Below, piece after piece: positions 13,286-36,273 of a stretch of DNA of 39,417 bases. Location of the stretch: assembly GCA_902776945.1 (NCBI GenBank), contig CACYSH010000007.1, forward strand, positions 1 through 39,417, written 5' to 3'. Numbering within the stretch: position 1 is the stretch's first letter; every line of letters begins with the position of its first letter. The notes under the pieces are model-generated. The model saw only the letters and a list, made by a program, of their open reading frames with translations. It was not told the origin of the DNA and did no database searches. The position numbers and the translations under genes were made by a program. Source of the DNA: an uncultured Ruminococcus sp. GTDB taxonomy: Bacteria; Bacillota; Clostridia; Oscillospirales; Ruminococcaceae.

Positions 13286-13287
13286 TT

Positions 13288-13620
13288 ATGGGATTTATTC
13301 TTAAAGACGACAACTCGAACGGTGAGCCGGAAGACCTTGCCGCAATGATAGACAGGCTTTTCCAGCAGGGCGGCGGACATCTCGTCATCAACATGGACGA
13401 GCTTAACGAGAATGTGCGTTTTACTACGGCGCGGGGCGACTGCGCGGAGGTTGGCGCGTGCGCCCAGCCGACCGAGTTCATTAATGAGGACGACGAGAAC
13501 GATCTTCCGCTTGACGGCGATTTTTACGAGGACGACGAGTACGACCCCGCCGACGACGAGGACGGCTTTGACGGCGATTACGAGGACGATGAGTACAACG
13601 AGGACGAGGAAGACGATTAA
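13288..13620 (+). CDS. Acidic 110-residue protein with a partial glycyl-radical-domain-like N-terminus
   Basis: It starts two bases after the pflB stop with a ribosome site in AAAGGAGAATAATT. Residues 15-43 (EDLAAMIDRLFQQGGGHLVI...) align by eye with residues 9-37 of the downstream glycyl-radical protein ([20 protein letters not shown]...), sharing L, D, GG, HL and N. The part that would carry the radical glycine is missing. Instead there is a middle segment with two cysteines (C52, C58) and a tail (66-110) that is almost entirely Asp and Glu. Its position between the two halves of one enzyme suggests a role in assembly or inhibition, but that is inference. No known family is recognised. Confidence 0.8.
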   Translation: MGFILKDDNSNGEPEDLAAMIDRLFQQGGGHLVINMDELNENVRFTTARGDCAEVGACAQPTEFINEDDENDLPLDGDFYEDDEYDPADDEDGFDGDYEDDEYNEDEEDD

Positions 13621-13638
13621 CGAAAGGACTGGTGTTCA

Positions 13639-13881
13639 ATGAAAGCGGCAAACGATCAGATAGACAACCTTGTCAGCCTGCTTGACGGCTATGTTGAAAA
13701 AGGCGGGCATCATCTCAATGTGAACGTGTTTAACCGGGAAACGCTTCTTGACGCGCAGGCGCATCCGGAGAAATATCCGCAGCTGACGGTGCGTGTTTCG
13801 GGTTATGCGGTGAATTTCGTCAAGCTGACAAAAGAGCAGCAGGACGACGTTATCTCGCGTACATTCCACGAATCTATATAA
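13639..13881 (+). CDS. grcA: Stand-alone glycyl-radical domain of pyruvate formate-lyase (GrcA-like)
   Basis: 80 residues equal to the C-terminus of a normal Pfl[26 protein letters not shown], then RVSGYAVNF with radical-bearing Gly55, and [17 protein letters not shown]. In E. coli the related GrcA (YfiD) rescues oxygen-cleaved PflB. Here the main enzyme lacks this domain altogether, so this protein must supply it unless another full-length pfl exists elsewhere. The ribosome site AAAGGA precedes the ATG. It is the last gene of the operon, followed by a strong terminator. Confidence 0.92.
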
Positions 13882-13887
13882 AAACAG

Positions 13888-13923
13888 CCCCCGCAGGGTA
13901 AACGCCTTGCGGGGGATTTTGTT
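13888..13923 (+). terminator. Intrinsic terminator of the pfl operon
   Basis: CCCCCGCAGG and CCTTGCGGGGG form a strong stem (one bulged T) followed by ATTTTGTT, seven bases after the grcA-like stop. Confidence 0.88.
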
Positions 13924-13941
13924 GCAGAAACATCATAGTAA

Positions 13942-14415
13942 GCAAAACCAAAAGTCTTAGGAAAGGGGTGTGGGGGACAACCCTTCTTCAGAAGGGTTTC
14001 CCCCACAAAAGCCGACCGCATTCACAAACTAACGGTAAAGAGAAGCCATTAAGTCTAAAATTAAAATCGGCAATTTTAAGAAATACTAACAAAAATAAGC
14101 AATTTGATAAATCAGCAAAACGTGGCGGAAACTAACGAATTGCCGATTTTAATTTGCGAAAGAGCGCAGCGATTTTCGCAAATAGAATTTCCCCGCCGTC
14201 GGAAATATTCAGAGCCTTCGCGCAATCGTTGTGCAAAAATCGGCAATTTCCTTTTTTACGCTCACTTTTGCTGAATTTAATGATTCTGCTTTTTTGTGGG
14301 CTTTTTTAGAAATTGCCGATTTTATTTTGGTTGGAAATGCTTCTTGCTATTTCTTATGAGACTTGTGAGATACGGATTGTGGGGGAAGACCCTTCCTAAG
14401 ACTTTTGGTTTTTCT
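13942..14415 (+). repeat. 474-bp non-coding element with inverted ends and four alternating internal motifs
   Basis: The left end (13942-13976, AAAACCAAAAGTCTTAGGAA then GGGTGTGGGGG) and the right end (14380-14415, its reverse complement with changes) are inverted copies of module B. Next to the left end is a long hairpin, GTGGGGGA...ACCCTTCT-TC-AGAAGGGT...TCCCCCAC. Inside, the motif AAAATCGGCAATTT occurs four times in alternating orientation (14063+, 14137-, 14235+, 14309-). A TTTGCGAAA/TTTTCGCAAA hairpin lies at 14154-14182. No gene is seen; it resembles a non-autonomous mobile or regulatory-RNA element. Confidence 0.7.
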
Positions 14416-14458
14416 CTGACCCGCAGTTGCTTTTGGTTTTGCCCTCACTTGCGGCTAT

Positions 14459-15301
14459 TTACTGTTTTACCATTTTCATGCTTATATCAAACGCCTTAAC
14501 CGAATGCGTAAGCGCTCCGAGCGAAATAATATCCACGCCCGTCTTCGCAATATCCGCAATGGTCTCCTCCGTGACATTGCCCGACGCTTCGAGCTTCGCC
14601 CGCCCCGCCGTTATCTCAACAGCTTTCGCCATATCCTCGCAGGACATATTGTCAAGCATGATTATCTCGCACCCGACCTCAAGCGCCTCTTTAAGCTCCT
14701 CAAGCGTGCCGACCTCAACTTCTATCTTCACCGTATGCCCCATTTTTTCGCGCAGAGCGTTCACCGCGCCCGTAATAGAGCCGTAAGCGTCAAGGTGCGT
14801 GTCTTTCAGCATAGCGCAGTCCGAAAGATTGTAGCGGTGATTCTTCCCGCCGCCGACCGTCACCGCGTATTTCTGAAAAATGCGCAGTCCCGGCAGAGTT
14901 TTCCTTGTGTCGCAGACAGAAGCCTTCGTACCTTCAACGAGCTTTACGCACTTGTTCGTCGCGGTGGCAATGCCCGAAAGGTGCTGCAAGATGTTCAGCG
15001 CCGTGCGTTCGCCTTTCAGCAGCGCCCGCGTGTGGGCGGTCATTCTCGCGATTATGTCGCCCTTTCTGACCTTTTCGCCGTCCTGGATATACACGTCAAA
15101 TGTCGCGGCGGGGTCGAGCAGCGTGAACACCCTCAGCGCCATTTCAATGCCGCAGAGTATTCCGTCCGCCTTTGCCACATACTGGGCGGTGTCGATCTTG
15201 TCCTCGTCAACAAGGTAATCGGTGGTAACGTCGATGTAGTTGATGTCCTCCGCAAGTGCGGCTTTTATCATGTCGTCTATCTGGAATTGCATTAATCTCA
15301 T
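14459..15301 (-). CDS. nadC: Nicotinate-nucleotide pyrophosphorylase (carboxylating), quinolinate phosphoribosyltransferase
   Basis: 280 residues, normal length. It contains LKGERTALNILQHLSGIAT, the phosphoribosyl-binding VCDTRKTLPGLR, GGGKNHRYNLSD, KIEVEV, IIMLDN, LEASGNV and SLGALTHS, the full NadC signature. It converts quinolinate and PRPP to nicotinate mononucleotide in de novo NAD synthesis. The start ATG at 15301 has GGAG about nine bases upstream. The partner nadB is 2.9 kb away across four unrelated genes. NadA is not in the window. Confidence 0.96.
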   Translation of the reverse strand: MRLMQFQIDDMIKAALAEDINYIDVTTDYLVDEDKIDTAQYVAKADGILCGIEMALRVFTLLDPAATFDVYIQDGEKVRKGDIIARMTAHTRALLKGERTALNILQHLSGIATATNKCVKLVEGTKASVCDTRKTLPGLRIFQKYAVTVGGGKNHRYNLSDCAMLKDTHLDAYGSITGAVNALREKMGHTVKIEVEVGTLEELKEALEVGCEIIMLDNMSCEDMAKAVEITAGRAKLEASGNVTEETIADIAKTGVDIISLGALTHSVKAFDISMKMVKQ

Positions 15302-15325
15302 TTGTTCATTCTCCGTTCTGTTAAA

Positions 15326-15745
15326 TTATTCGTCCTCGTCGATGTTTTCTTCTATCCTCTCGAATATTCTGTCCCTAAGCCAATCGGCAAGCGAAAGGTC
15401 GCTTAAAAACGGCGGACATTCGGTGTCGCAGCGGATAAGCCTGCCGTTTTCGTCCGAGACCATGTAACAGCCGTCGCCGATAAGGTCTCCGAGATACAGC
15501 CAGCCCGCAGGGATATTCGTCCAATGGGTGATGACCTTTATATCCGCAAGCGGGAACACCCTGAAATTCACGTCAGGCTCGAAGCCGTCGGAAAATTGCA
15601 AAAACTCCTTTATCTCGTCGGGAATAATTGCGCCAAGCGAACGCTCCCGTTCGGCTATCTGCTCGGGTGTCGCGGGCGGGTTCAGTTTGTTTGTCATTTT
15701 GGCTTTTTCGAGAAGCTCTTTAAGCTCTTCAAGAACCTTCTGCAT
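15326..15745 (-). CDS. SMI1/KNR4 (SUKH) family protein
   Basis: 139 residues. The segment KLNPPATPEQIAERERSLG, then IPDEIKEFLQFSDGFE, is the standard SUKH N-terminal signature, and WLYLGDLIGDG fits the middle of the fold. In bacteria most SUKH proteins are immunity proteins against contact-dependent or polymorphic toxins; some have other roles. No toxin is beside it. It has 24 bp to nadC and 12 bp to a second SUKH protein upstream, so the three are one operon. Confidence 0.85.
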   Translation of the reverse strand: MQKVLEELKELLEKAKMTNKLNPPATPEQIAERERSLGAIIPDEIKEFLQFSDGFEPDVNFRVFPLADIKVITHWTNIPAGWLYLGDLIGDGCYMVSDENGRLIRCDTECPPFLSDLSLADWLRDRIFERIEENIDEDE

Positions 15746-15757
15746 ATTTTGCTCCTT

Positions 15758-16645
15758 CTACTCGGCGGCGCTTTCCGTGTAATTCGGATTTTTCTTGTTT
15801 ATTTGGGGGATAAGCTCGCGGCGGATATATTTAAAGAATCCCGCATCGTAGCTGCCTTTCAGGCTAAGATCGCCGTCTTTGTCTGATAAAAGCGTTCCGT
15901 TAGCCTTGCCCACGGTGAAATATTGCTCCTCGCAGTCCTTCGGTCTTACGTCGGGGGAAATTTTTTCAAGCGGCAGCACCTCGAACTTGCCGTATTTAAA
16001 GCCGTTCGAGAACATAAGAAAATCCTTGATGATCTGCGGCAGCTTGCAGCCGTTGTTATTCTCCCACGCGGCTATTTCCGCGCCTGTTGCGGGAGGATTC
16101 AGCTTGTCAAGCTCCCTGCTGTTTCTGAGCGCTTCGGTGAGATATTTCTCCGTCATGGAGCTGTCCCAGCCGCTCGCCTTTTCTCCGGTCAGCTCTTCCC
16201 ACTTGACGGCGGTTATCTTCTCCTCTTTCGCTAAGATGACCCGCCCGCCGTCTGTCATGATATGGTACAGGCGGTATTCGTCGGAGCCGTCTTCTTCTCT
16301 GGTCGAATAGCTTTCGTAGGCGTAATCGGCAACGCCGTCACTGACTGCTTTATAGTCCCACACATCATAATAGCCCTTGCGGTAGACGTTGCGGTTCCCT
16401 ATTATATCTTCGCCGCCCACAAGCATCAGTGAATTATTAAGGTAAGAGTGCGGGTCGGTCATCAGCCGGAACCAGCCCTCGTCGGTAACGCCTGTTTCAT
16501 AACCCTTGCTCTCGGCTTTCGTCTGCATACAGCTCACGCCTATCACCGCCGCTATGATGAACACAGGCGCAAGCGCACCTAATATCGTGTAGACTATCGC
16601 GGCGGGTATCGTCAGCGCGAGTATTTTCACCTTGTCTTTATTCAT
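15758..16645 (-). CDS. Membrane-anchored protein with C-terminal SUKH domain
   Basis: 295 residues. A hydrophobic N-terminal segment (about 8-37) anchors it. A middle region (about 50-180, with EEDGSDEYRLYHIMTDGG) is of unknown type. The last ~115 residues repeat the SUKH signature (KLNPPATGAEIAAWENNNG, IKDFLMFSNGF) and match the neighbour at 15326-15745 closely in that region, so the two SUKH domains are probably a duplication. Anchoring a SUKH domain by a membrane helix is not the usual immunity-protein layout. Confidence 0.8.
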   Translation of the reverse strand: MNKDKVKILALTIPAAIVYTILGALAPVFIIAAVIGVSCMQTKAESKGYETGVTDEGWFRLMTDPHSYLNNSLMLVGGEDIIGNRNVYRKGYYDVWDYKAVSDGVADYAYESYSTREEDGSDEYRLYHIMTDGGRVILAKEEKITAVKWEELTGEKASGWDSSMTEKYLTEALRNSRELDKLNPPATGAEIAAWENNNGCKLPQIIKDFLMFSNGFKYGKFEVLPLEKISPDVRPKDCEEQYFTVGKANGTLLSDKDGDLSLKGSYDAGFFKYIRRELIPQINKKNPNYTESAAE

Positions 16646-16664
16646 ATTTTCACCTTGTTTTTAT

Positions 16665-16822
16665 TAGACTTCCTCGGAAACTAACGTGTGCCGAATGTCG
16701 AAAGATTTTGTCATGATGCGAGGCGGACGACGAAAGCGTGCTGTCGCACGGTGAGGAGGACAACGAAGCAGCATGGCAAAAGATTTCGACAGGCGGTGCG
16801 CGTTAGTTTTCGAGGAAGTCTA
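16665..16822 (-). repeat. 158-bp palindromic MITE-like element
   Basis: A 22-bp terminal inverted repeat (TAGACTTCCTCG..AAACTAACG, one mismatch) bounds the element. A second inner inverted pair (TGTCGAAAGATTTTG and its complement) continues the palindrome. TA at both ends suggests the target duplication used by IS630/Tc1-type MITEs. The right end overlaps the stop codon of the 16820-17380 gene. Confidence 0.75.
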
Positions 16823-17380
16823 TTCATGCGATTCACCGTTTACGGCGGCTTCGTAGTCCACCTGCGAAATGCTCTCCTGCGTGAAGGTGATATTCAAGTC
16901 TGCGCCGACGGTCACGGTTATATGTTCGTAAAGCCGCTTACCCATGATGCTTTCCTCCGAGTGCGCGGTGTAAAGCTCCGCCTCGCCCTCCGCGACGGGC
17001 GTGTATATCCTGCCCGCCCGCGTGACGTTCCCCGAAAGCACGAATGCGAACCGCGTTGTTTCCGCCAAAGCGCTGCCTTTAAGCACAAATTCCTCTCTTT
17101 CGGAATTTGTCGCGCAAAGGTACGCTATGCAAAGCTCGCCGCTTTCCATAATGCCTGTCTTGTATTTTTCGGTGCGGTTCTTATACCATCTGTAAGCGAC
17201 AACAGCCCCGACCGCCATCAGCACGATAACTATCTGGAGTATCAGCGCCGCCGTGCGGTCTTTCGTCCAGGGGCGCTTTCTTATCTCAATATCGTCTTCC
17301 TCCTGCGCGGGGGCGGGAGCGGCTTCGGCGGGCTTTTCCTCGGTTTTTACCGTGCTGTTTTCAGTCTGTTCCGCTGCCAT
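16820..17380 (-). CDS. Single-span membrane protein, unknown function
   Basis: 186 residues. The Pro/Ala/Glu-rich cytoplasmic N-terminus (1-42) is followed by one membrane helix (about 44-64) and an extracytoplasmic domain of ~120 residues with an alternating beta-like pattern (LCIAYLCATNSEREEFVLKG). No family is recognised. Its first 20 bp overlap the upstream gene's end. The stop codon lies within the terminal repeat of the MITE, so the original C-terminus may have been altered by the insertion. Confidence 0.7.
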   Translation of the reverse strand: MAAEQTENSTVKTEEKPAEAAPAPAQEEDDIEIRKRPWTKDRTAALILQIVIVLMAVGAVVAYRWYKNRTEKYKTGIMESGELCIAYLCATNSEREEFVLKGSALAETTRFAFVLSGNVTRAGRIYTPVAEGEAELYTAHSEESIMGKRLYEHITVTVGADLNITFTQESISQVDYEAAVNGESHE

Positions 17381-17876
17381 CTTGCTTTGAGGACACCTCT
17401 CCCGTATTTATCATGCGAATGTCGTTGAAAGCGATATAACCGTCGTGGCTCCTCAGCTCGGCGTTGATGTTCATGTGCAGAACCGCAATGGCAAGATCGG
17501 CGGCAAGCAGGATAAAAAGCCGCAGATCGACCGCCAGCAGCACCGCCGCCGCCACGCTCACGACAAGGAAATTTTTCTTAAAAAATACAAATATCACATA
17601 TATTGCAAGGAACAGGACGATTATTATCGACGAGATAAGTATATTATGCGCTTCGATCAACGCCATAAGGTAGAAGATCAGCGACAGCACGGGGTTTATC
17701 AAAACGAACGCGCTTTCAAGGTTTTTCATCTTCTTGCGGTTCACGCGGCACACGCCCATTTCCTCGTTGTAGTCCTTGACCATGCCGACGACCTCCGCGG
17801 GGGTGTCGAGGTAGATGCTTATAAACCCGTCGCGCTTGCCTTTTTCAAATATTTCGTTGGCATCTAACATTTCCAT
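17361..17876 (-). CDS. Small multi-span membrane protein, unknown function
   Basis: 171 residues. A soluble N-terminus (1-55; FISIYLDTPAEVVGMVKDY) is followed by hydrophobic segments at about 57-75, 78-98 and 102-134, and a short polar C-terminus. AGGAATAGG precedes the ATG. Overlap with the next gene shows coupled translation. The pair may be a membrane complex; no function is recognised. Confidence 0.7.
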   Translation of the reverse strand: MEMLDANEIFEKGKRDGFISIYLDTPAEVVGMVKDYNEEMGVCRVNRKKMKNLESAFVLINPVLSLIFYLMALIEAHNILISSIIIVLFLAIYVIFVFFKKNFLVVSVAAAVLLAVDLRLFILLAADLAIAVLHMNINAELRSHDGYIAFNDIRMINTGEVSSKQDGSGTD

Positions 17877-18004
17877 ATTTATCGACCTATTCCTTTACTT
17901 GTCTGTGCTTGTTTGTGCTGACTTTTTTTCACGGCTGTTATTCTTTTGTTTCCGAATATATCGTATGGCGGGGGATTGCTTGGTATTCCCTGACCTGTTC
18001 GAAA

Positions 18005-18100
18005 ATGCGGTTTTGCGGGCGTTCACGGACGAGCAATGCTCGCCCCTACAATATGTAACCCGCACAGAACCTGATGTAAGGCGGGGGCTTGCTCCCGCCC
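18005..18100 (-). repeat. Dispersed repeat module A (copy 2, minus) with adjoining hairpin module C
   Basis: On the minus strand 18085-18005 matches module A (CATATTGTAGGGGCGAGC, then GCTCGTCCGTGAACG). A GGCGGG...CCCGCC hairpin (about 18080-18100) adjoins, and the same sequence recurs inverted at about 19987-20006. No gene is seen between 17877 and 18184. Confidence 0.8.
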
Positions 18101-18184
18101 GTGAATTGACTTTGACCGTGCAAAAATCCTCGCCCTTGCGGTAATTTTGTTCTTTTGGGAAGATTCTGCTGTGCGGTGTATCCT

Positions 18185-19690
18185 TTATTCCGGTTTCTCA
18201 AAAATCGGCATATTCGGGATCTTCTCGCTGCCCGCGCAAATATCCTGCGCCTCTTTCAGAATGATATACGCACAGGTCGCAAGGCTCCGCGCAACCACAT
18301 AATCGCTGTCTATCGCATACCGCGTATTATCAAGGTCGTCAACGATCTTCCTGACCTCTTCAAGCCCACTCTTCAAGCCCTTGACATTCGGAATGACAAA
18401 ATAATCCTCCTGCATGATACCGCGAATCTTGCGGCGGTTGCCCTCCGGCATCTTCGGAGCGCCCTCGTGCAGATCGAACGTATGCTCTTCAAAATCCTTC
18501 GGCGTGGTCTTTGCTTTTTCGGCAATATCGGCGGCGGCGCGGCGTGAGAAAACGTGCGCTTCAAGCAGCGAATTGCTCGCCAGTCTGTTGTTGCCGTGAA
18601 CGCCCGTGCAGCTGCATTCGCCGCAGGCATACAGACCGTCAATAGTCGTGCGCGAATAAGTATCGACCTTTATGCCGCCCATAAGATAGTGCTGACACGG
18701 GAATATCGGGATATAGTCCTTCGTCATGTCGATATTCTGCGTGAGCAGGTTCTTGTATATCATCGGGAAACGCTTCTTGATGAACTCGGGGTCTTTGTGC
18801 GTGATGTCGAGGAAAAATTCGTCGCTGCCCGTTCTCTGCGATTCAAATATTATCGAGTGCGAAACAACGTCACGCGGCGCAAGCTCAAGGCGCTTGTCAT
18901 AAAGGTGCATGAAACGCTCGCCCTTGCAGTTGCGCAGATAAGCGCCCTCGCCGCGCACCGCTTCGGAGATAAGGAAGCATTCGCGGGTGTGGCGGTTGTT
19001 GAAGGCGGTAGGGTGGAACTGAATGTAGCTCAGATGTTCGATAGTTGCGCCCATGCGGTAAGCCATAGCTATTCCGTCGCCCGTGGCGATCGCGGAGTTT
19101 GTCGTATACTTGTAAACGCGCCCGATACCGCCCGTTGCGAAGATCACGAAATGCGCGTTGATAGTCTCATAGCCGCCGTTTTTCAGCACGAGCAGCGAAA
19201 AGCCCGTCGAGGTCTTAGCCGTGTCGCAGACAAGCGAATTATCGCGCAGCTCGACATTAGGCAGCGCCTTGACCGTGCGGAGCAGGGTGTGTTCGATCTC
19301 CGCGCCCGTGCAGTCGGCGTGGTGGAAGATACGGTGCTTGCCGTGACCGCCTTCTAAGGTGCGGTGGTAGTCGCCGTCGGGGGTCTTGTCGAAATCCGCG
19401 CCCAGCTCGATCAGCTTGCCGATGTCCTTGCAGGCTTCGGTGACGAGGACCTCGGTGGAAACGGGGTCGTTTTCATAGCCGCCCGCTACGAAAGTATCGT
19501 GCTTGTGAAGTTCGGGGGAATCGTCGGGGGATTCGTACACGCCCGCGATACCGCCCTGAGCGAGCGAGGAATTGCAGAGGTCTTCTTCGCGCTTGGCAAG
19601 CACGAGGATATTAAGTTCGCGTGGGAGATTATAAGCGGCGTAAAGACCGGAAGCGCCCGCGCCTACGATAACAACGTCATAATTTTTCAT
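18185..19690 (-). CDS. nadB: L-aspartate oxidase
   Basis: 501 residues. The FAD-binding start is YDVVIVGAGASGLYAA, with SSLAQGGIAGV, HADCTGAEIEHTLLR, IQFHPTAFNN, EAVRGEGAYLRN and the FAD/substrate motif NRLASNSLLEAHVF. It oxidises aspartate to iminoaspartate; under anaerobic conditions family members can use fumarate. It supplies NadA, which is not in the window. Its own consensus promoter lies 53 bp upstream, and it is cut off from nadC by repeats and four other genes. Confidence 0.95.
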   Translation of the reverse strand: MKNYDVVIVGAGASGLYAAYNLPRELNILVLAKREEDLCNSSLAQGGIAGVYESPDDSPELHKHDTFVAGGYENDPVSTEVLVTEACKDIGKLIELGADFDKTPDGDYHRTLEGGHGKHRIFHHADCTGAEIEHTLLRTVKALPNVELRDNSLVCDTAKTSTGFSLLVLKNGGYETINAHFVIFATGGIGRVYKYTTNSAIATGDGIAMAYRMGATIEHLSYIQFHPTAFNNRHTRECFLISEAVRGEGAYLRNCKGERFMHLYDKRLELAPRDVVSHSIIFESQRTGSDEFFLDITHKDPEFIKKRFPMIYKNLLTQNIDMTKDYIPIFPCQHYLMGGIKVDTYSRTTIDGLYACGECSCTGVHGNNRLASNSLLEAHVFSRRAAADIAEKAKTTPKDFEEHTFDLHEGAPKMPEGNRRKIRGIMQEDYFVIPNVKGLKSGLEEVRKIVDDLDNTRYAIDSDYVVARSLATCAYIILKEAQDICAGSEKIPNMPIFEKPE

Positions 19691-20414: not shown

Positions 20415-21143
20415 ATGGTAATATACAGCAGTTTCTCCGATAAGGGAGAGAGAGAAGTAAACGAGGACAGCATTGCCGTTGCGGAAAAGGACGGCAGATA
20501 TTGCTTTGTACTTTGCGACGGTCTCGGCGGTCACGGCAAGGGCGACCTTGCCTCCGGCTCGGTGACGGACAGCATTATAAAATGCTTTGAAGAGAACGGT
20601 GCGGACGAGCAGTTTTTGGATACAGCCATGCTTAAAGCGCAGGAAGAGCTTCTCGCCGAGCAGAGCAGGATAGGCGCGGTAAGTCAGATGAAGACAACCG
20701 CAGTAGTGCTTCTGATACACGAGGATAAATTCCGCTACGCCTATATCGGCGATTCAAGGCTTTATCATTTCAGGAAAAACAAGGTGCTGTCAAGAACGCT
20801 CGATCACAGCGTTCCGCAGATGCTCGTGTACGCGGGCGATATTAAGGAAAAGCAGATACGCAGCCACCCCGACCGCAACAGACTTCTCAGGGTAATGGGG
20901 GTCGAGTGGGAGTCGCCGAGATACGTTGTTTCGGAGGTCGGCACGCTTCGCGGCGGGGACGCATTCCTGCTATGCTCCGACGGGTTCTGGGAGCCTATCG
21001 TTGAAAAGGAAATGTGCCGTCTGCTGAAAAAAAGCTCGGACGCTGAGGGCTGGCTTGCGGCGATGAGCAATACTGTCAAGGAAAACGGCAAAGGTACGAA
21101 TATGGATAATTACAGCGCGATAGCTGTAATGTACCGCGAATAG
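20415..21143 (+). CDS. PP2C-family Ser/Thr protein phosphatase (first of two)
   Basis: 242 residues, a minimal bacterial PP2C domain. It has the metal-binding and catalytic motifs REVNEDSI, FVLCDGLGGHGKGD, YIGDSRLYHF, FLLCSDGFWE and MDNYSAIAV, all intact. It would remove phosphate from Ser/Thr residues of targets such as the two kinases downstream or the FHA protein. The ATG follows AAAGGAAAG. It is first in a five-gene plus-strand operon with gaps or overlaps under 20 bp. Confidence 0.92.
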   Translation: MVIYSSFSDKGEREVNEDSIAVAEKDGRYCFVLCDGLGGHGKGDLASGSVTDSIIKCFEENGADEQFLDTAMLKAQEELLAEQSRIGAVSQMKTTAVVLLIHEDKFRYAYIGDSRLYHFRKNKVLSRTLDHSVPQMLVYAGDIKEKQIRSHPDRNRLLRVMGVEWESPRYVVSEVGTLRGGDAFLLCSDGFWEPIVEKEMCRLLKKSSDAEGWLAAMSNTVKENGKGTNMDNYSAIAVMYRE

Positions 21144-21159: not shown

Positions 21160-21900
21160 ATGATAGAATACGAATTGAGAACTGATATAGGCACAAGAGA
21201 AGATCAGCAGGACTGCGCCGGTACGCATCAGGCGGACGACTTGTTCCTGGCTGTCCTTTGCGACGGCATGGGCGGACATAAGGGCGGCGCGCTTGCTTCC
21301 TTCACGGTGGTCAAGGAGTTTTTGTCATCGGCGGAAGCGGGGAGCATCGACAAGCTCAACGTTCCCGAATCGCTGATAGCCTGTGCCGAAAGGGCAAACA
21401 GACTGGTGCGCGAGCTTCGCGACGAGCAGGGCGAAAGGCTCAACGCGGGAACTACGCTCGTTTCGGTCGTTATCGACGAAAACAAGCTGTACTGGCTCTC
21501 GGCGGGCGACAGCCGCCTGTACATAGTGCGCGGCGGAAAGATAACTCAGATAACTAAAGACCATAATTATTTTTACGTCCTTGACAGACTTTTGAGCGAA
21601 GGACGGATAAGCGCGGAGAAATACCGGCAAAAAAGCAGGGGCGGTCATGCGCTCATCAGCTTTATAGGCATTCCGAGACTTGATATAGTAGATATAAACT
21701 TAGAGCCGTTTATTCTGTATCCGGGCGATGTTTTATTGCTCGCGTCGGACGGGCTTTTCAAGATAATGGATAACGAGGATATTCTCCGCTGCATCGAAGC
21801 ACGCATGGATAAGTCGGCTGACGAGCTGATAGATTTTATAAGAAGAAGCGAAAATACAAGTAAAGATAATTCGACATTTATAATTGTCGGCATGAGGTGA
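21160..21900 (+). CDS. PP2C-family Ser/Thr protein phosphatase (second of two)
   Basis: 246 residues with intact PP2C motifs: TREDQQDCAG, AVLCDGMGGHKGGALA, LSAGDSRLYIVRGG, LLASDGLFKIM and KDNSTFIIVGM. Identity to the first phosphatase is low outside the motifs, so this is not a recent copy; the two may serve different kinases or states. The stop lies eight bases before the FHA gene's start. Confidence 0.92.
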   Translation: MIEYELRTDIGTREDQQDCAGTHQADDLFLAVLCDGMGGHKGGALASFTVVKEFLSSAEAGSIDKLNVPESLIACAERANRLVRELRDEQGERLNAGTTLVSVVIDENKLYWLSAGDSRLYIVRGGKITQITKDHNYFYVLDRLLSEGRISAEKYRQKSRGGHALISFIGIPRLDIVDINLEPFILYPGDVLLLASDGLFKIMDNEDILRCIEARMDKSADELIDFIRRSENTSKDNSTFIIVGMR

Positions 21901-21908
21901 TACCAGAT

Positions 21909-22916
21909 ATGAAAACTGTAAAATGCCCGAACGTTGTTGGTCATTATTATGACGCGGATAAATTTGATACCTGTCCGCACTGCATGAAAGCCGCGGGGAT
22001 AAGACCCGTGCCGAAGGTAAGCCCCGTATTTCCCTCGCCCACTGCCTCTACAAAGGCAGCAGGCGAGCCGGAAACAAACAAGACAGACGACGACAAGGAT
22101 AAAAAATCCGCCCGCGCACATTCGGCAGGATTGTTCTCGCGGTTCTTCGGCAGCCGCAAGGAGGATAACGACGACATTGCAGATCAGCCGCGTGCCGCAG
22201 AGCCTGCGGGGTCTCAGCAGGAGGACAACCCCACCCGCTATTCGGAAGCCGACCGCACGGACGAGTTCAAGACGGGCGCTGTATTCGATCTGCCTGAGGA
22301 CGAAGCAGCAGAGGAGAATGAAAGCTCATCGGACGACGAAAAGACTGAGATGCTTGCCCTGGCGGACGTTGACGAGCCGCTGCCCGTGCCGCCCGTTCAG
22401 CAGGCACAGCCTGTTCAGCCGGTTCAGCCTGTTCAGCCCGCGCCCGCCGCTCTTGTCCAGCCCGCTCCCATTTCGGTAAGTAAGCAGATAAACCGCGTGG
22501 CGATGTCGGGGAATATCGGCGACATAAAGACGATAGCCCACTTCGGCTTTGAGGAAGATATAGAACCTGTTGTCGGCTGGCTGGCGGTAGTCACGACGGC
22601 TGACAAGGGTACCTCGTTTGAGATAAAAAACGGGCGTACCACCATTGGGCGCAGCGGGAACGGTCAGATAGTTGACGTAAGCCTTGAAAGGGACGCTTCG
22701 GTATCGAGGGGCGCACAGGCTACGATAACCTACGACCCCAAAAAGGTAAGGTTCCTGATAAAGTCCAACGACGCAAACACGCTCGTTTATGTAAACGAGG
22801 AGCTGCTTATGGAATATACGGAGCTTAAAGCCTACGACAGGATACAGCTCGGAAGCTCCGAGCTTGTATTTATCCCGCTCTGCTCCGATAAATTTAGCTG
22901 GAACGAAGATGACTGA
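21909..22916 (+). CDS. Zinc-ribbon and FHA-domain phosphothreonine-binding adaptor
   Basis: 335 residues from the ATG at 21909, served by GAGGTGA; the GTG at 21897 has no site. The N-terminus KCPNVVGHYYDADKFDTCPHC is a small zinc-binding knuckle. Residues ~35-200 are acidic and disordered, with a Pro-Val-Gln repeat tract (QPVQPVQPVQPAP). The last ~115 residues are an FHA domain (TTIGRSGNGQIVDVSLERDA, SVSRGAQATI, TLVYVNEELL). The position normally held by His in SxxH is replaced, so phosphothreonine binding may be altered. FHA proteins bind autophosphorylated kinases of the type encoded next. Confidence 0.88.
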   Translation: MKTVKCPNVVGHYYDADKFDTCPHCMKAAGIRPVPKVSPVFPSPTASTKAAGEPETNKTDDDKDKKSARAHSAGLFSRFFGSRKEDNDDIADQPRAAEPAGSQQEDNPTRYSEADRTDEFKTGAVFDLPEDEAAEENESSSDDEKTEMLALADVDEPLPVPPVQQAQPVQPVQPVQPAPAALVQPAPISVSKQINRVAMSGNIGDIKTIAHFGFEEDIEPVVGWLAVVTTADKGTSFEIKNGRTTIGRSGNGQIVDVSLERDASVSRGAQATITYDPKKVRFLIKSNDANTLVYVNEELLMEYTELKAYDRIQLGSSELVFIPLCSDKFSWNEDD

Positions 22917-22927
22917 GGGTGCCTGAG

Positions 22928-24901
22928 ATGAAAAAATGCTGTAACTGCTTCGAGCAGTATGACGATGAGCTTACAAAATGCTCGCACTGCGGCTATACGC
23001 CGGGCGACCCACCAAAGGAGTTGTATCATCTTTTTCCGGGTTCGCTGTTGAAGGACAGGTATTCTATCGGAATGGTGCTGGGCTTCGGCGGATTCGGAAT
23101 AACTTACAAGGCATGGGATAACAAGCTCGATACCGTCGTGGCGATAAAGGAATACTATCCGAGCGGCATAGTAAGCAGATCGCCGGGCGAAATGGAGATC
23201 ATTCTGTATAACAAAAAAAGGCAGAAGGAATTTTATTACCTGAGAGACCGTTTTCTTGAAGAAGCCCGCAATATAGCGAAATTCAATTCCGAAAATAACA
23301 TAGTGAACGTATTCGAGTTTTTCGAGGATAACAATACCGCCTATATCGTCATGGAATTTCTTGACGGTATTTCCGTGAAAAGCTATATGACCGATTACGG
23401 CATCATGGGTATAGATTCGGGCATAGCGATAACCGAAGCGATAGCGGACGCTCTCGGCAAGATACACGCAAAGGGCATTATCCACCGCGACATCAGCCCC
23501 GATAATATATTTCTCTGCACGAACGGCGATACAAAGCTGATAGACTTCGGCGCGGCAAGGTTCTCGCTTGACGAAAACAAGCTGATGACGATAATCGTAA
23601 AGCCGGGTTTCGCGCCGCCCGAGCAGTATCAGAGCGTAAACGAGCAGGGTCCCTGGACGGACGTTTACGCGCTGGGAGCCACGCTTTATTACATGATAAC
23701 GGGCGTGAAGCCGGAGGAATCCACAAACAGAGTGGAACACGACACTCTGCGCTATCCTCACGAGCTTAACAACGAAATCCCGGAGTACATAAGCAATTCG
23801 ATAATGAAGGCTATGGCGGTCGAGACCCATATGCGTTTCCGCGATGTGAAGAGCTTTATCGACGGTCTGCATAAGGAGATAAAGGTATTAAGCCTTGAGA
23901 ATGAAAAAAAGAAGAGGCGCAAAAAGCGCTTCATCGGAATGGTGGCTACGGCGGTGGTGCTTGCGAGCGGCGCTTCGGCGGCGGCAATAAAATTGTACGA
24001 AGTGATAATAAATAAAATTCTTCCTGTTCCGTGTACCGTTTCGATGTGGTACTGCAAAAGCGGTGACATCGAGGCTGACGAAGCCGAAGAGAAGGCCTAT
24101 AACGACATAATCAAGGAGTTAAATGAAAGCTATCCCAAGGTGACTATCGAACTTAAAGGCTATGAAGAGGAAGAATATGTAAAACTGCTCTCGGATACGG
24201 AGAATCTGCCCGATATTTACGAATATGTCGGTACGTTCTCGGCGGGGGAAACGCCCTTTTCGTTTGAAGAAGTCTATCATTCGGAAAAAGCCAAGCATTG
24301 CAGCCTGCTTTCGCAGGCGCAAGGTCATTTCGGCGGATACGAGCTTCTGCCGCTGGGTTTCAGCGCTCCTGTGGTATTCTGCGACAAGGTACTTTGTCCC
24401 GACGCGGGCAATTCGGTATCAGACCCGGGCAGTCTGCCGCGTGGAACGGGCGGAGTAAAGAGCTTCGAGACCGATTACGAAGGCTTTGAGAAGATGTTCC
24501 CCGGCTCGCAGTCGGCGTTATCGGAAACGGCTTTCGATGATTTTGCCGCCGGTAACACGGCGTTCTACGGTTCGCTCACAAAGAATTACAGCCGCGTAAC
24601 GGACGAGCTTCCCGCGCAGTACAAGATCATGTATTGCGACGCGAATGAGATAAACTGCGTTTACGAAAACGTATGGGCGGCGAACTCCAAAGACGACTAT
24701 CATGACATGGTGTTGCAGCGCATAATGGAATTTATGCTGACCGATAACGCTCAGGACATTCTGCACGTAAGAAATAAAAGCGGAAGTCTGCCGCTGAACG
24801 ACAATGCGCTTGACGTATATGTGTCGGTATTCAGCGATTACGAGAAGATATTTGACAATAAAAATAAGTATGTATTTGAAAAAAGGCAGGTGGAAGAATG
24901 A
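22928..24901 (+). CDS. Transmembrane Ser/Thr kinase with a solute-binding-protein-like ectodomain
   Basis: 657 residues from the ATG at 22928 (site GAGGGTG). Residues 4-21 form a zinc knuckle (CxxC-x10-CxxC). The kinase domain runs from about 45 to 310, with GFGGFGITY, K74 in VAIKEYYP, HRDISPDN (D188) and DFGAAR (D206), all present. One membrane helix lies at about 334-357. The outside part (about 366-657) resembles ABC-transporter extracellular solute-binding proteins of the SBP_bac_1 type. It has TVSMWYCKSG, then AYNDIIKELNESYPKVTIEL, YVKLLSDTENLPDIYEY, the aromatic/pocket segment FAAGNTAFYGSL and near the end FMLTDNAQDILHVRNKSGSL, all in family order. The likely reading is a receptor kinase sensing a small solute, perhaps a sugar; the ligand is unknown. 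The stop overlaps the next kinase's start (ATGA). Confidence 0.88.
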   Translation: MKKCCNCFEQYDDELTKCSHCGYTPGDPPKELYHLFPGSLLKDRYSIGMVLGFGGFGITYKAWDNKLDTVVAIKEYYPSGIVSRSPGEMEIILYNKKRQKEFYYLRDRFLEEARNIAKFNSENNIVNVFEFFEDNNTAYIVMEFLDGISVKSYMTDYGIMGIDSGIAITEAIADALGKIHAKGIIHRDISPDNIFLCTNGDTKLIDFGAARFSLDENKLMTIIVKPGFAPPEQYQSVNEQGPWTDVYALGATLYYMITGVKPEESTNRVEHDTLRYPHELNNEIPEYISNSIMKAMAVETHMRFRDVKSFIDGLHKEIKVLSLENEKKKRRKKRFIGMVATAVVLASGASAAAIKLYEVIINKILPVPCTVSMWYCKSGDIEADEAEEKAYNDIIKELNESYPKVTIELKGYEEEEYVKLLSDTENLPDIYEYVGTFSAGETPFSFEEVYHSEKAKHCSLLSQAQGHFGGYELLPLGFSAPVVFCDKVLCPDAGNSVSDPGSLPRGTGGVKSFETDYEGFEKMFPGSQSALSETAFDDFAAGNTAFYGSLTKNYSRVTDELPAQYKIMYCDANEINCVYENVWAANSKDDYHDMVLQRIMEFMLTDNAQDILHVRNKSGSLPLNDNALDVYVSVFSDYEKIFDNKNKYVFEKRQVEE

Positions 24902-27900
24902 AACGCTGCATGGGGTGTATGAGGGAATACGGCGACGAGCATTCCGTATGTCCTCACTGCGGCTTCGCGGAAGGTACCCAACAGGAAAACGCCCTTCACA
25001 TGATACCCGGTTCGGTACTTGCGGACAGGTATGTAATCGGAAAGGTGATAGGCTACGGCGGATTCGGCGTAACGTACGTCGGCTGGGATTCTCTGCTTGA
25101 AACAAGGGTGGCTATAAAGGAATATCTTCCCAGTGAGTTTTCGACCCGCGTTATAGGGCAGACAGAGGTAACGGTTTTCAGCGGCGATAAGCAGCAGCAG
25201 TTCGCCGACGGTATGAAGAAGTTCATCGACGAAGCCAAAAAGCTCGCGAAATTCCATTCGACAAACGGCATAGTAAAGATATTCGACAGCATCGAGATAA
25301 ATAACACGGCGTATATCATCATGGAGCTGCTCGAAGGCGAAACGCTCGCCGAGCTTCTGAAGCGCGAGGGTCATCTTTCCGAGGACAAAACAATGGAAAT
25401 GATGATCCCGATAATAGAATCTCTCGATATGGTACACGAAGACGGTATAATCCACCGAGACATAGCACCCGACAATATTTTCGTGACGAACAGCGGCGAG
25501 GTAAAGCTCATCGACTTCGGTGCCGCCCGCTATGCGACGACCACGCACAGCCGTTCGCTGACGGTAATAATCAAGCCGGGCTATTCTCCCGAGGAGCAGT
25601 ACCGCAGCCGCGGAGACCAGGGACCGCATACCGACGTTTACGCGGTAGCCGCCACGATGTACAAAATGCTTACGGGGGTAACTCCTCCCGACGCGCTCGA
25701 ACGCAGAGCGCTTTTCGAGAATAAGAAAAAGGATATTCTCGACCCGATAAGAAAGCACTGCAAGGAGGTCAGCACGAGCCGCGAAAACGCGATACTGAAC
25801 GCCCTGAACGTGCGTATAGAGGACAGAACTCCCGATATGAAGGAGTTCATGGCGGAGCTTACGAGCGTTGAGCCGGTAAAGCGCCGCGCAGGAAACATAA
25901 AGAAGATCGACCTCTACAAATGGCCCATATGGGCAAAGATAACCTTTCCGGTCATTACGGCGGCACTTATAGTGTTCATTGTGCTGATTAATGGAAAAAT
26001 TAAAAACCTTGATGTCGATCCAAATTCGGATATAACTATCCCCGATGGACAGACGAGAGTGCCTTCAGTCGTGAACAAATCGTATTTCAAGGGACAGTAC
26101 GATCTGAAGGGGCAAAAGCTGGCATTCGAAATAAGCGACAGAGTGCCTTCGGAAAAGGTCGAAAAAGACCTGGTAATGTATCAGAGCATAAACGGCGGCG
26201 CGGTGGTGCAGCAAAACTCCCTTGTAAAACTGGTGGTGAGCGGCGGCGCACTGCTCCAGCCCGTACCCGATGTAAGGGGACTGAGCAGAGAAAAAGCAGA
26301 AGAACAGCTCGGCAACCTGAATTTCTCCGTTCTTGTTAAAGAAACCTACGACAACACCATTGCCGAAGGCTATGTGGTGGCGCAGAGCATAGCCCCCGAT
26401 GCGGAAGCGAAGGACGGCAGCGAGATAACGCTTACAGTCTCCAAGGGGCGCGACCCTGCGAGGACGTTCGAGGAAAAGGACGTTACTCTGACGAATTTTA
26501 TCGGCATGAAGTACGGGGACGCTCTGAAAGAGGCTCAGAGGCTGGGTGTTACGGTAAAGATAACCCAAAAGAAGTACAGCAGCAGCTTTGATAAGGATAC
26601 GGTAATGGATCAGCGCCCCGAACCGGATTCGACGGTGAAGAACACCGCTGCCGTCGAGCTTGTGATCTCGCTCGGGTATTCAAAGATCACCGTACCCGAT
26701 GTAAAGGCAATCGAAGAGGAAAAGGCGGTCGCCATGCTGGAGGGCAGGGGACTGCGCTGCAAGGTGACGTATGAGCAGAACAACAACATAGCGGCGGGTC
26801 ATGTCGCTTCGCAGGATCCCGTGAAGGATACGGAGGTCGATCCCGAAACGCTGATAAATTTGGTCGTAAGTACGGGAGCCGCCGAATTTGATATGCCCGA
26901 CGTGGTCGGCAAGGATGTTGAGGAAGCAAAGAAGCTGCTGGAAAGCAGGGGACTTGTGGTTCTGCTGAATTATGAGCAGAACAAAAATAAGCCTGAGGGT
27001 ACCGTGCTTATGCAGAGCGTAAAAAGCGGCTCGGGCGTTATACGCGGAGATAATATAATCCTGACGATATGCACGCACAGCGAGACGATAACCGTTCCGT
27101 ATCTTATCGGCAAAACGCAGAGCGAGGCGGAGAAGGAGCTTCGTGCAGCGGGCTTCAAGGTGAACGTGATAACGGTACAGGGTTCGGACGAAGACAGCGG
27201 CAAGGTAGTCGCGCAGTCTCCGACGGCGGGCAGCGGTCTGCGTAAGGGAGACACCGTGTCTGTCAGCGTATGCGAAGGCGGCGCGGACGATACCGTCAGC
27301 AGCAATATCGGCAGCAAGACCGGTTCCGCAGGCGACAAGTCCGAGGATCTCAGCTCGCTGACCGTGAAGCTCTCCGAAAGCTCGCTGACCCTTGAGATCG
27401 GCGAAACGCACGATCTGAGCTATAATACCGATACTTCGAAATGGACGATAACCTCCGAGGAATGGAGTACGGGCAACAGCTCGGTTGCAACGGTTGACGG
27501 CAGAGGAAAGGTAAGCGCAGCAGGCAGCGGAACGACCGAGATCAAGGTTACATTGACCGGCAAGAGCAGCAATGGTCAGAGCGTGACGAGAACTGCAAGC
27601 TGCAATGTAAAGGTAAACGAGCCTGTTCAGCCGGACAACATAAAGCTGTCAAGCACCACGCTTGAAATGAAGATAGGCGATACCGCCACGCTTGAAGCGA
27701 CCGTAACTCCCGAAAGCGCCAAGAACAAGACCGTGACATGGAGTACGAGCGACAGCGCCGTGGCGACCGTCGAGGGCGGCTATATCAAGGCTTTGAGCGA
27801 AGGCACCGCGACGATAACCGCCGAAACGGCAAACGGCAGGAAGGCAACCTGTACGGTAACTGTCAAGCCCGTGGTTCCGACGGCGATAACTCTCGACAGC

Positions 27901-29862
27901 AATTCGGTAACGCTCTTTGAGGGCGAGGAAAAGACGATAACCGCGACGGTGCTTCCTTCTGACGCTAAGGACAAGTCGGTAATATGGACAACGGGCGACA
28001 GCGCGGTTGCGACCGTGAACGGCGGAAAGATAACGGCAGTATCCAAAGGCACGACGACTATTACGGCAAAGACCTCGAACGGGCTGACGGCGGAATGCCA
28101 GGTGACTGTAAACGAGATAGTACCGACGAGCGTTACGCTTAACAGAACGGATTATATTGATCTTTTTGAAGGCGATACGGAATTGCTTATTGCGACAGTC
28201 AATCCCGAGAACGCCAAAGACAAGTCGCTGAAATGGGAAAGCAGCGATACAAATGTTGCGACGGTCGGCGACGGCAGGGTCACGGCGGTCAATGCGGGTA
28301 CGGCGTCAATAACCGTTACTACCTCAAACGGCTTGACGGCATCGTGCTGGGTAAGGGTCAATGAGGTATTGGCGGATTCGATAACGCTTGACAAGACCGA
28401 ATTAGAGATCTATACTGACGATACTGCCGAAACCGGCGACAGAGCGAAGAAAAAACTTACGGCGACTATTTTCCCCGAAAATACTAAGGATAAGTCGGTG
28501 AAATGGACAAGCAGCAATACCAGAGTCGTAACGGTAGAAGACGGTGTTGTAACGCCGGTGGGCGAGGGCAAAGCTACGATAACGGCGGAGACCAAAAACG
28601 GCAAGAAGGTCGAATGCAAAGTTCAGGTTGCTTCACCCTACCCGACGGAGATCCGGCTTGAAGAGTCCGAGATTGTCATGATCCGAATTGGCAGCGAGCA
28701 TCAGTTGGTTGCGAAAATTGCACCGGGCTACGCAAGAGAAAAAGAAATTACATGGACGAGCAGTGATAAAAATGTAGTGACCGTAGATTCAAATGGCTGG
28801 GTGAAAGCGGAAGGAGCCGGAACAGCCACGATAACGGCAACGACTATGAAAGATAAGGATAAGACACCACTGACGGCAACTTGCGTTGTTACAGTCAGCA
28901 ATGTAGTTGACTCTGGTAAGTGCGGCTCAAGAGCTACATGGGAACTGTCGGGAGAAGGAAAGCTGTCGATCGGGGGAATGGGAGATATGGAAGATTATCC
29001 TTATGGTTCTACAATTGCGAACTCCGCACCGTGGGCGAAATACGCCGAAAAAATCACCGAGGTTTATGTTGGCGGCGTTGAAAAAATTGGAAATAGCAGC
29101 TTTGCGAATTTAGGAAATTTGAAAAAAGTTCAAATTGAAAATTCAGTAAAACGCATAGGCGAGTATGCTTTTTCTAATTGTACTTCTTTAAACTCAGTCA
29201 GTCTTTCAAGTGGTCTGGAAGAGATTAGAGAGGGCGCGTTTAGTACTTGTGAATCACTGGTAAATGTGGCTTTGCCGTCAACAGTATATAAAATCGATGG
29301 TCATGCTTTTAATTCGTGCATAAAGCTGGAGAGCATAGTGATACCTGATCGTGTGACTGTAATAGAAGGCGGTACTTTCTTTGGATGCAGCAATCTAAGC
29401 AGCGTTACACTGCCAAACTACTTAAATGAAATCAAAGAGAATGCTTTTACAAGTACTGATGTGGATAACTTATCGATACCAAACAGTGTGACAAGAATAG
29501 GTAAGCAAGCGTTTGCCGGATGCAGCAGCCTAAGTAATGTTTCGCTCTCAGAGGACTCCAGCTACTTACAGGAAATAGGAGAAGGGGCTTTTGAAAGTAC
29601 TGGTTTTCAGAGCATAGTGATACCAAGAAAAGTGGGAAAAATAGGCAGACGAGCATTTTATAATTGCAAAAATTTGTCATCTGCAAAGATTCCTCCAAAT
29701 GTTTATGAGATCGGAGAACAGGCTTTTGGTTATTTAAACAATGATAATAATCCAAAGGTCAAGGGCTTCAAAATCAAAGGTTCAAAGTACAGCGCAGCTT
29801 ATTACTACTATGAAGCTGATAAGGATTATTTTAAATTCGAGGAGTATTATTTTGTCTGGTAA
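24898..29862 (+). CDS. Giant transmembrane Ser/Thr kinase with PASTA, Big_2 and LRR ectodomain
   Basis: 1654 residues. The zinc knuckle (C4, C7, C18, C21) and kinase residues K74, D188 and D206 are at exactly the same positions as in the preceding kinase, so the cytoplasmic halves are paralogous. A membrane helix lies at about 341-366. Six PASTA-like repeats span about 388-797 (e.g. VPDVRGLSREKAEEQL), six Big_2 immunoglobulin-like repeats about 820-1334 (e.g. NKTVTWSTSDSAVATVEGG), and a BspA-type leucine-rich region about 1335-1640 (e.g. VKRIGEYAFSNCTSLNSVSL). PASTA kinases (PrkC/Stk) bind muropeptides and regulate wall growth and germination. Big_2 and LRR modules are adhesion parts, not usual on a kinase. 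From about nucleotide 28,680 the coding sequence turns AT-rich, unlike the first 1260 codons. Confidence 0.9.
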   Translation: MKRCMGCMREYGDEHSVCPHCGFAEGTQQENALHMIPGSVLADRYVIGKVIGYGGFGVTYVGWDSLLETRVAIKEYLPSEFSTRVIGQTEVTVFSGDKQQQFADGMKKFIDEAKKLAKFHSTNGIVKIFDSIEINNTAYIIMELLEGETLAELLKREGHLSEDKTMEMMIPIIESLDMVHEDGIIHRDIAPDNIFVTNSGEVKLIDFGAARYATTTHSRSLTVIIKPGYSPEEQYRSRGDQGPHTDVYAVAATMYKMLTGVTPPDALERRALFENKKKDILDPIRKHCKEVSTSRENAILNALNVRIEDRTPDMKEFMAELTSVEPVKRRAGNIKKIDLYKWPIWAKITFPVITAALIVFIVLINGKIKNLDVDPNSDITIPDGQTRVPSVVNKSYFKGQYDLKGQKLAFEISDRVPSEKVEKDLVMYQSINGGAVVQQNSLVKLVVSGGALLQPVPDVRGLSREKAEEQLGNLNFSVLVKETYDNTIAEGYVVAQSIAPDAEAKDGSEITLTVSKGRDPARTFEEKDVTLTNFIGMKYGDALKEAQRLGVTVKITQKKYSSSFDKDTVMDQRPEPDSTVKNTAAVELVISLGYSKITVPDVKAIEEEKAVAMLEGRGLRCKVTYEQNNNIAAGHVASQDPVKDTEVDPETLINLVVSTGAAEFDMPDVVGKDVEEAKKLLESRGLVVLLNYEQNKNKPEGTVLMQSVKSGSGVIRGDNIILTICTHSETITVPYLIGKTQSEAEKELRAAGFKVNVITVQGSDEDSGKVVAQSPTAGSGLRKGDTVSVSVCEGGADDTVSSNIGSKTGSAGDKSEDLSSLTVKLSESSLTLEIGETHDLSYNTDTSKWTITSEEWSTGNSSVATVDGRGKVSAAGSGTTEIKVTLTGKSSNGQSVTRTASCNVKVNEPVQPDNIKLSSTTLEMKIGDTATLEATVTPESAKNKTVTWSTSDSAVATVEGGYIKALSEGTATITAETANGRKATCTVTVKPVVPTAITLDSNSVTLFEGEEKTITATVLPSDAKDKSVIWTTGDSAVATVNGGKITAVSKGTTTITAKTSNGLTAECQVTVNEIVPTSVTLNRTDYIDLFEGDTELLIATVNPENAKDKSLKWESSDTNVATVGDGRVTAVNAGTASITVTTSNGLTASCWVRVNEVLADSITLDKTELEIYTDDTAETGDRAKKKLTATIFPENTKDKSVKWTSSNTRVVTVEDGVVTPVGEGKATITAETKNGKKVECKVQVASPYPTEIRLEESEIVMIRIGSEHQLVAKIAPGYAREKEITWTSSDKNVVTVDSNGWVKAEGAGTATITATTMKDKDKTPLTATCVVTVSNVVDSGKCGSRATWELSGEGKLSIGGMGDMEDYPYGSTIANSAPWAKYAEKITEVYVGGVEKIGNSSFANLGNLKKVQIENSVKRIGEYAFSNCTSLNSVSLSSGLEEIREGAFSTCESLVNVALPSTVYKIDGHAFNSCIKLESIVIPDRVTVIEGGTFFGCSNLSSVTLPNYLNEIKENAFTSTDVDNLSIPNSVTRIGKQAFAGCSSLSNVSLSEDSSYLQEIGEGAFESTGFQSIVIPRKVGKIGRRAFYNCKNLSSAKIPPNVYEIGEQAFGYLNNDNNPKVKGFKIKGSKYSAAYYYYEADKDYFKFEEYYFVW

Positions 29863-36210: not shown

Positions 36211-36273
36211 CATATCACCCCTAAACAAATAATCAGAATTCGCAATGTGACAAATTACAATTATTCATACTAT

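Follow-up and report, generated by a model that had tools for sequence, protein, structure and literature searches.

The K1 gene lies in the 39,417-nucleotide stretch of uncultured Ruminococcus sp. DNA analysed here (the window) and probably encodes a ligand-gated, single-pass receptor kinase, in which a tethered and reduced solute-binding protein (SBP) domain feeds a kinase/PP2C/FHA circuit. Direct support exists for the kinase, the membrane helix, the homology of the outer domain and the order of the surrounding genes (Table 1).

Layout of the K1 protein

The K1 frame (22919-24901, forward strand) gives 660 residues from a GTG at 22919 and 657 from an ATG at 22928, and the ATG is favoured as the start because the first Met of the relatives aligns there. 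An N-terminal zinc ribbon of the form CxxC...CxxC, conserved in 26/26 members of the K1 motif table, precedes a kinase domain that is matched in Pfam by PF00069 (E 1.4e-35, aa 48-277) and PF07714 (E 2.2e-18, aa 109-300) and that carries the motifs GFGGFG, VVAIKEY, HRDISPDN, DFG and PPE; judged by these intact motifs, K1 is a Hanks-type Ser/Thr kinase for which phosphotransfer is predicted. The best NCBIfam match of the protein is NF033483 (PknB_PASTA; E 3e-49, 168 bits), which lies under the cut-off of 450. A Kyte-Doolittle scan with windows of 19 residues places the start of each of its eight top-scoring windows within aa 337-346, directly after the stretch KKKRRKKR. By the positive-inside rule, such a basic stretch marks the cytosolic side of a membrane helix, and since KKKRRKKR sits on the kinase side, the kinase is predicted to lie inside the cell and the C-terminal part should face outside. 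The initial annotation had described an outer part joined by one helix to an intact Hanks-type kinase, and the hydrophobicity scan, PF00069 and the catalytic motifs agree on this arrangement. The outer motifs that it had quoted are likewise all found in K1, namely, numbered from the GTG, MWY (376-378), ELNESYPKVTIEL (400-412), LPDIYEY (430-436), FAAGNTAFY (542-550) and TDNAQDILHVRNKSGSLP (608-625). An antisense frame of 346 aa (22832-23872, reverse strand) lies opposite the kinase part and is probably a by-product of codon usage.

Table 1. Features of the K1 locus (window positions) and copies of the pseudokinase paralogue.
Feature	Position	Strand	Basis or remark
PP2C phosphatase a	20415..21143	+	Pfam PF13672, E 6.9e-14
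PP2C phosphatase b	21160..21900	+	Pfam PF00481, E 3.1e-13; 4-nt overlap with FHA gene
FHA-domain protein	21897..22916	+	Pfam PF00498, E 6.3e-6, over cut-off
K1, SBP-kinase gene	22928..24901	+	657 aa from ATG; in-frame GTG upstream at 22919
K1 N-terminal zinc ribbon, CxxC...CxxC	22937..22990	+	sequence
K1 Hanks-type Ser/Thr kinase domain, catalytic motifs intact	23060..23818	+	Pfam and motif table
K1 transmembrane helix (predicted), best window aa 339-357	23933..23989	+	Kyte-Doolittle scan; KKKRRKKR just before
K1 reduced SBP_bac_1/8-type ectodomain, aa 368-660	24020..24898	+	family profile; nothing from the single sequence
K1 ectodomain part matching SBP N-lobe	24017..24346	+	hhalign E 1.4e-12, this part alone
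K1 crossover strand and shortened C-lobe	24347..24898	+	weaker match; hhalign E 6.8e-5, this part alone
K2, second kinase	24898..29862	+	kinase, 6 PASTA, 6 Big_2, LRR_5 (Pfam)
Pseudokinase paralogue copies	L002/L053/L054 (G000:C63), L004 (G004:C308)		PP2C and PASTA kinase beside

Homology and reduction of the ectodomain

At the level of the family profile, the K1 ectodomain is homologous to SBPs of families 1 and 8. Searched by itself, the window ectodomain matched no Pfam family at E <=1, no NCBIfam family and, in the PDB, one unrelated chain (E 1.4). A 14-row ectodomain profile retrieved 17 PDB chains, comprising sugar-binding proteins (best E 7e-6) and a lowest-ranked chain that is unrelated (E 2), and a 23-member profile reached a best E of 6.3e-9 with 37 chains at E <=1. 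Binding-protein names are borne by 30 of these 37, the other seven being MalE1 (2), ABC transporter (2), XylA, Lmo0181 and a maltose transport permease homologue, and three of the five chains shown (7v09, 8vqk and 8ula) give collinear matches in two segments. Pfam at E <=0.01 detects SBP_bac_8 in 18/23 of the ectodomains and SBP_bac_1 in 9/23, with neither family matching the window copy at that threshold; the K1 of R. albus 8 exceeds the SBP_bac_8 cut-off (30.9 vs 27) through a match in its C part (profile 175-265 of 279).

Profile-profile comparison by hhalign of 24 K1 ectodomains with 16 plain SBPs gave a probability of 98.4 and E 4.9e-15 over 277 columns (score 114.9), a comparison that is not independent, since the SBP rows were themselves picked with the ectodomain profile; Pfam confirms 4/16 of those rows as SBPs. 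Five shuffles, one reversed profile and one kinase domain, used as controls, all gave E 0.2-0.9, and as 40 further column shuffles scored 19.8 at most, chance resemblance was rejected. For the nine Ruminococcus-like members the alignment spans 138 columns on the N-lobe side (E 8.6e-12), and for the 13 other members 254 columns (E 5.8e-12). The 24-member profile omits the contig-end fragments L011 and L016, and the 23-member set additionally L023; from the 16-row SBP alignment were omitted L037, L039 and, as apparent repeats of L024 and L028 by look, L026, L030 and L031. Profile matches at E 1e-3 to 1e-6 in the genomes of the family are frames of 420-791 aa, and all four of those scanned with Pfam are SBPs, with L025, L028 and L037 passing the cut-off and L039 falling under it. 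The SBP origin that the initial annotation had assigned to the outer part is thus borne out by the PDB search with the family profile, by SBP_bac_8 and by hhalign, and the profile search that it had proposed as a check came out negative for the single sequence and positive for the family. The two-lobed type II fold predicted for the domain rests on this homology.

The ectodomain is considerably shorter than its free relatives, at 284-308 aa in 24/24 complete members (taken from shortly before the start of the model up to the end of the frame) against 420-485 aa in plain SBP frames (n=16), the latter lengths including the signal sequence because frames were measured from stop to stop; K1 thus falls short of full SBP length. 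In the plain SBP L028, model positions 126 and 163 match residues 200 and 294, and by this correspondence some 57 residues are absent from the start of the K1 C-lobe. Eight positions (W377, Y420, P431, P478, P484, F542, Q612 and P625) are invariant in 24/24, and Cys580 (22/24) and Cys461 (18/24 complete ectodomains) may form a disulfide. No reduced domain of this type was seen outside kinase frames among the ectodomain-profile matches, in which kinase-less frames reached 49.5 bits at most (L050) and the weakest complete K1, L023, scored 145 bits. Between the window K1 and L005, dN/dS is 0.30 in the ectodomain, 0.10 in the kinase and 1.3 in 32 codons around the helix, the ectodomain value being raised by an unusually low dS there (0.31 vs 1.02 in the kinase). 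This fall in dS from about 1.0 to about 0.3 looks as if the ectodomain had been swapped in more recently, and third-position differences between the two genes (window 22919-24898) are fewest at aa 421-600.

The K1 family and its gene neighbourhood

Genome searches gathered 26 distinct K1-type kinases, a count that excludes L003, L018, L041, L043 and L049, which repeat other loci; the survey for kinases of the same architecture that the initial annotation had suggested has accordingly found a family, and with 26 members an assembly artefact was rejected as the source of the fusion. The catalytic Lys, the catalytic Asp and the Asp of D(F/L)G are all present in 24/26. The two exceptions represent one paralogue, found in the window's own genome (G000:C63) and in its sister genome G004, in which HGN replaces HRD, LGL replaces DFG and the VAIK Lys is lost; in the G000:C63 copy the TAA of the frame is its own stop codon, and an ectodomain 28% identical is retained. 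The frame of the R. albus 8 K1 (L008:5545-7959) is 805 aa long, with an N-terminal extension whose start resembles, by eye, the FHA protein of other clusters.

Within the genomes searched, K1 is rare and patchy, as the low counts per rank indicate. The search of the genus with the single ectodomain found 2/13 genomes, the window's own included. With the 14-row profile, a full kinase-SBP was found in 6/297 genomes of the family (G000, G074, G143, G163, G272 and G303; 17 further genomes gave weak SBP matches only), in 8/394 of the order at E <=1e-10, in 5/391 of the class (three other matches being plain SBPs) and in 2/398 of the phylum, these samples overlapping. The scan for close relatives covered the whole genome collection and gave 13 loci, the profile search being limited to family, order, class and phylum. 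The titles of the records that hold K1 read Ruminococcus, Ruminococcus albus, Lachnospiraceae, Gracilibacteraceae or Clostridia.

In the window, K1 stands in the gene order PP2C-a, PP2C-b, FHA, K1, K2, with the FHA gene and K1 nearly abutting and the ATG of K2 overlapping the K1 stop by four nucleotides (ATGA). This order, in which a PASTA kinase follows the SBP-kinase, is seen again in records of Ruminococcus, Lachnospiraceae and Gracilibacteraceae; the initial annotation was silent on the module. Gene order was examined in 10/13 loci (L006-L010, L012-L015 and L017; L005, L011 and L016 were left out). A K2-type kinase lies 3' of K1 in 9/10 (absent in L008; in L010 another PASTA protein lies between the two), PP2C-a lies upstream of K1 in 7/10 and downstream in L015, and the FHA gene is immediately upstream in 6/10. 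The binding-protein-dependent permease family PF00528 has no match among the 25 window proteins scanned of 77 frames listed, which fits a sensor and not an uptake protein, and a role of K1 as a transporter component was rejected on this ground.

Other genes were observed around the module in related loci. A gene for a DUF6382 and FHA protein lies upstream of it in L063 (4537-5865), and Mbeg1-like or lipase-type proteins, which are possible secreted substrates, lie upstream at L013:679-2388, L015:1176-2708, L061:6462-8096 and L062:10829-12517, those of L013 and L062 being the same gene. Elsewhere in the window, an ORF with a Colicin-DNase/WHH nuclease domain and a MobA/VirD2 relaxase (34780-36228 and 37936-39399, reverse strand) lie in a region whose GC content is lower (about 0.40) and which is probably a mobile element.

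Proposed mechanism, alternatives and significance

The model proposes that a small extracellular ligand most likely closes the two lobes of the K1 ectodomain, which would alter the packing of two K1 chains, or of K1 and K2, across the membrane. The repacked kinase domains may then phosphorylate each other as well as Thr residues of cytosolic partners, whereupon the FHA protein of the operon would read the resulting phospho-Thr, and the marks would be erased by the two PP2C phosphatases. In this scheme, lobe closure, the ligand, dimer switching, the partnership of K1 with K2 and the FHA read-out are steps that we infer. A sugar-like ligand is a first guess and a polyamine-like ligand a second. 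According to a 2022 survey (PMC9602780), SBP_bac_1 proteins are mostly predicted sugar binders and SBP_bac_8 is linked to polyamines, so the oligosaccharide entertained by the initial annotation is not singled out; SBP_bac_8 is the more frequent match among K1 ectodomains (18/23 vs 9/23).

It is highly improbable that the resemblance to SBPs is accidental, or that it is limited to the N-terminal third. Such a reading could appeal to the single window ectodomain, with neither a Pfam, an NCBIfam nor a related PDB match, and to the concentration of signal in the N part (hhalign E 1.4e-12 vs 6.8e-5 for the C part). However, the C part reaches that E value by itself, the over-cut-off Pfam match of R. 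albus 8 is located in it, the matches to 7v09, 8vqk and 8ula are collinear in two segments, and shuffles (n=40) stay at or below 19.8 against 114.9. A different possibility, which we regard as unlikely, is that the SBP-derived ectodomain has lost the binding of small solutes and has become a docking or structural module for a protein or cell-wall polymer, with K2 (through its outer domains) or a secretion component as candidate partners and the kinase being switched by assembly. The uniform shortening of the domain in 24/24 members relative to 16 plain SBP frames and the weak match of its C part to SBPs would be in keeping with this, as would the presence of a K2-type kinase downstream in 9/10 flanked loci and the pseudokinase paralogue, whose retained ectodomain suggests that the domain can be useful without catalysis. 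Yet about 290 aa are still enough for a type II binding fold, and neither the N-lobe motifs nor the prolines close to the crossover vary in any of the 24 members.

A reading that is compatible with the receptor model, and that may be entertained tentatively, is that K1 is a dedicated regulator of type VII secretion (T7SS) in some lineages at least, its mini-SBP sensing a cue and its phosphorylation being read by FHA domains, in the separate protein and in EssC, to license secretion, on the model of threonine phosphorylation of the type VI system (T6SS). EssC, the T7SS ATPase (TIGR03928), is over the NCBIfam cut-off in 6/14 K1-bearing genomes, and in four of the 14 (G143, a single 2.7-Mb contig, G163, G516 and G609) K1 lies 8-13 kb downstream of it on the same contig and strand; in G303 and G403 the two are on different contigs. 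At E <=1e-100, EssC is matched in 8/14 K1 genomes of mixed rank vs 16/148 genomes of one family, a background that includes two K1 genomes. Matches at E 1e-20 also ring in 8/14 control genomes, and EssC was counted only at E <=1e-100 or over the cut-off, plus the named split genes. Between EssC and K1 lie WXG100 genes in L059, L061 and L062 (6/6 proteins tested over the Pfam cut-off) and YukD (over cut-off in L059, under it in L061), and the EssC of L059 carries an FHA domain. Split EssC-like genes, under cut-off, occur in G000 and G004 at a distance of about 3.4 kb from the pseudokinase paralogue, and in R. albus AR67 just upstream of the K1 module; a third copy of the module, L070 (G000:C36), combines split EssC-like genes with two PP2C genes, FHA and K2, and shows no K1 within the 19 kb examined. 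In the K1 tree, of which 10/24 inner forks are open, the T7-linked K1s occupy three places, namely the paralogue pair, L010 with L019, and 4/9 rows of the Lachnospiraceae-type group. However, the EssC search found no match on the window's contig, the matches of 6/14 K1 genomes are all weak and resemble those obtained in controls such as E. coli, and BLAST with split EssC placed it in 4/10 K1 stretches of 19-20 kb (overlapping frames hide K1 in the gene lists of L065 and L069; L068 is outside the BLASTed stretches). In L064, Tad-pilus-type genes (T2SSE ATPase and TadE, 11628-19499) instead run divergent to the K1-K2 pair. A broader and rather doubtful proposal is that one-chain nutrient-receptor kinases serve as the outside input of phospho-modules in Clostridia and, in some lineages, as an environmental switch of T7SS. 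The tethered mini-SBP would then act through kinase, FHA and PP2C to license secretion, as the Gram-positive equivalent of the threonine-phosphorylation pathway of the T6SS, and pseudokinase paralogues with an ectodomain would be decoys or scaffolds.

The receptor kinase proposed for K1 can be placed beside five known systems. The initial annotation had known of no established class of this kind, which does not hold, since fusions of a kinase to other classes of SBP were published in 2005; that source (PMC1262709) lists a kinase with an extracellular SBP of the Glu/Gln type in S. coelicolor (gi|21223285) and a kinase fused to an ANF receptor in Nostoc. K1 is therefore a variant of such fusions. 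Like them it joins a Hanks-type kinase and a solute-binding domain in one chain, and unlike them, by their description, it has a reduced SBP_bac_1/8 domain and adds a zinc ribbon and the Clostridial PP2C/FHA/PASTA-kinase module. A kinase with an SBP_bac_1/8 ectodomain was not found in the titles and abstract openings searched, most subscription journals being outside that scope. SBPs of families 1 and 8 are free secreted proteins or lipoproteins that work with an ABC permease. K1 is homologous to those of PF01547 and PF13416 (PDB 6rjy, 7v09 and 8vqk), with N-lobe, crossover and C-terminal motifs collinear, and differs from them in being tethered to a kinase via one helix, in having about 57 residues fewer (vs L028) and in the lack of any nearby permease family among the window proteins scanned. 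With the PASTA kinases (PknB/PrkC/Stk1), K1 shares its topology, and its partner K2 bears six PASTA repeats; K1, in which Pfam finds none, instead has the SBP-derived ectodomain and the extra zinc ribbon.

A comparable genomic setting is that of certain T7SS variants, in which, according to PMC11217815, the kinases TscD, TsdD, TseD and TsjD occur with PPM phosphatases and FHA proteins, and some T7SS are adjoined by Tad pilus genes. The C-terminal parts described there are largely helical in TscD and TsdD and TPR in TsjD, and Garrett, Higginson and Palmer suggest a T6SS-like phospho-control of T7SS (PMC11217815). The setting of K1 is alike in combining genes for a membrane kinase, a PP2C-type phosphatase and an FHA protein; as far as those descriptions go, K1 is set apart by its SBP ectodomain, and the window copy has no T7SS alongside. 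The main text of PMC11217815 uses neither the word solute nor the word PASTA, and its portions seen make no mention of an SBP ectodomain. In Corynebacterium, a Ser/Thr kinase likewise receives its input from a periplasmic binding protein, in the GlnH-GlnX-PknG system (PMC9769921), which is spread over three separate proteins where K1 would use one chain.

What stimulates bacterial Ser/Thr kinases is named an outstanding question in the abstract of PMC6069109. The tethered domain of K1 offers a purifiable ectodomain that can be screened directly, and Ruminococcus albus 8 owns one (L008). Recurring nearness to type VII secretion loci would link the input of K1 to a testable output, and if ligand binding has been lost, the ectodomain would represent a transport protein turned signalling scaffold.
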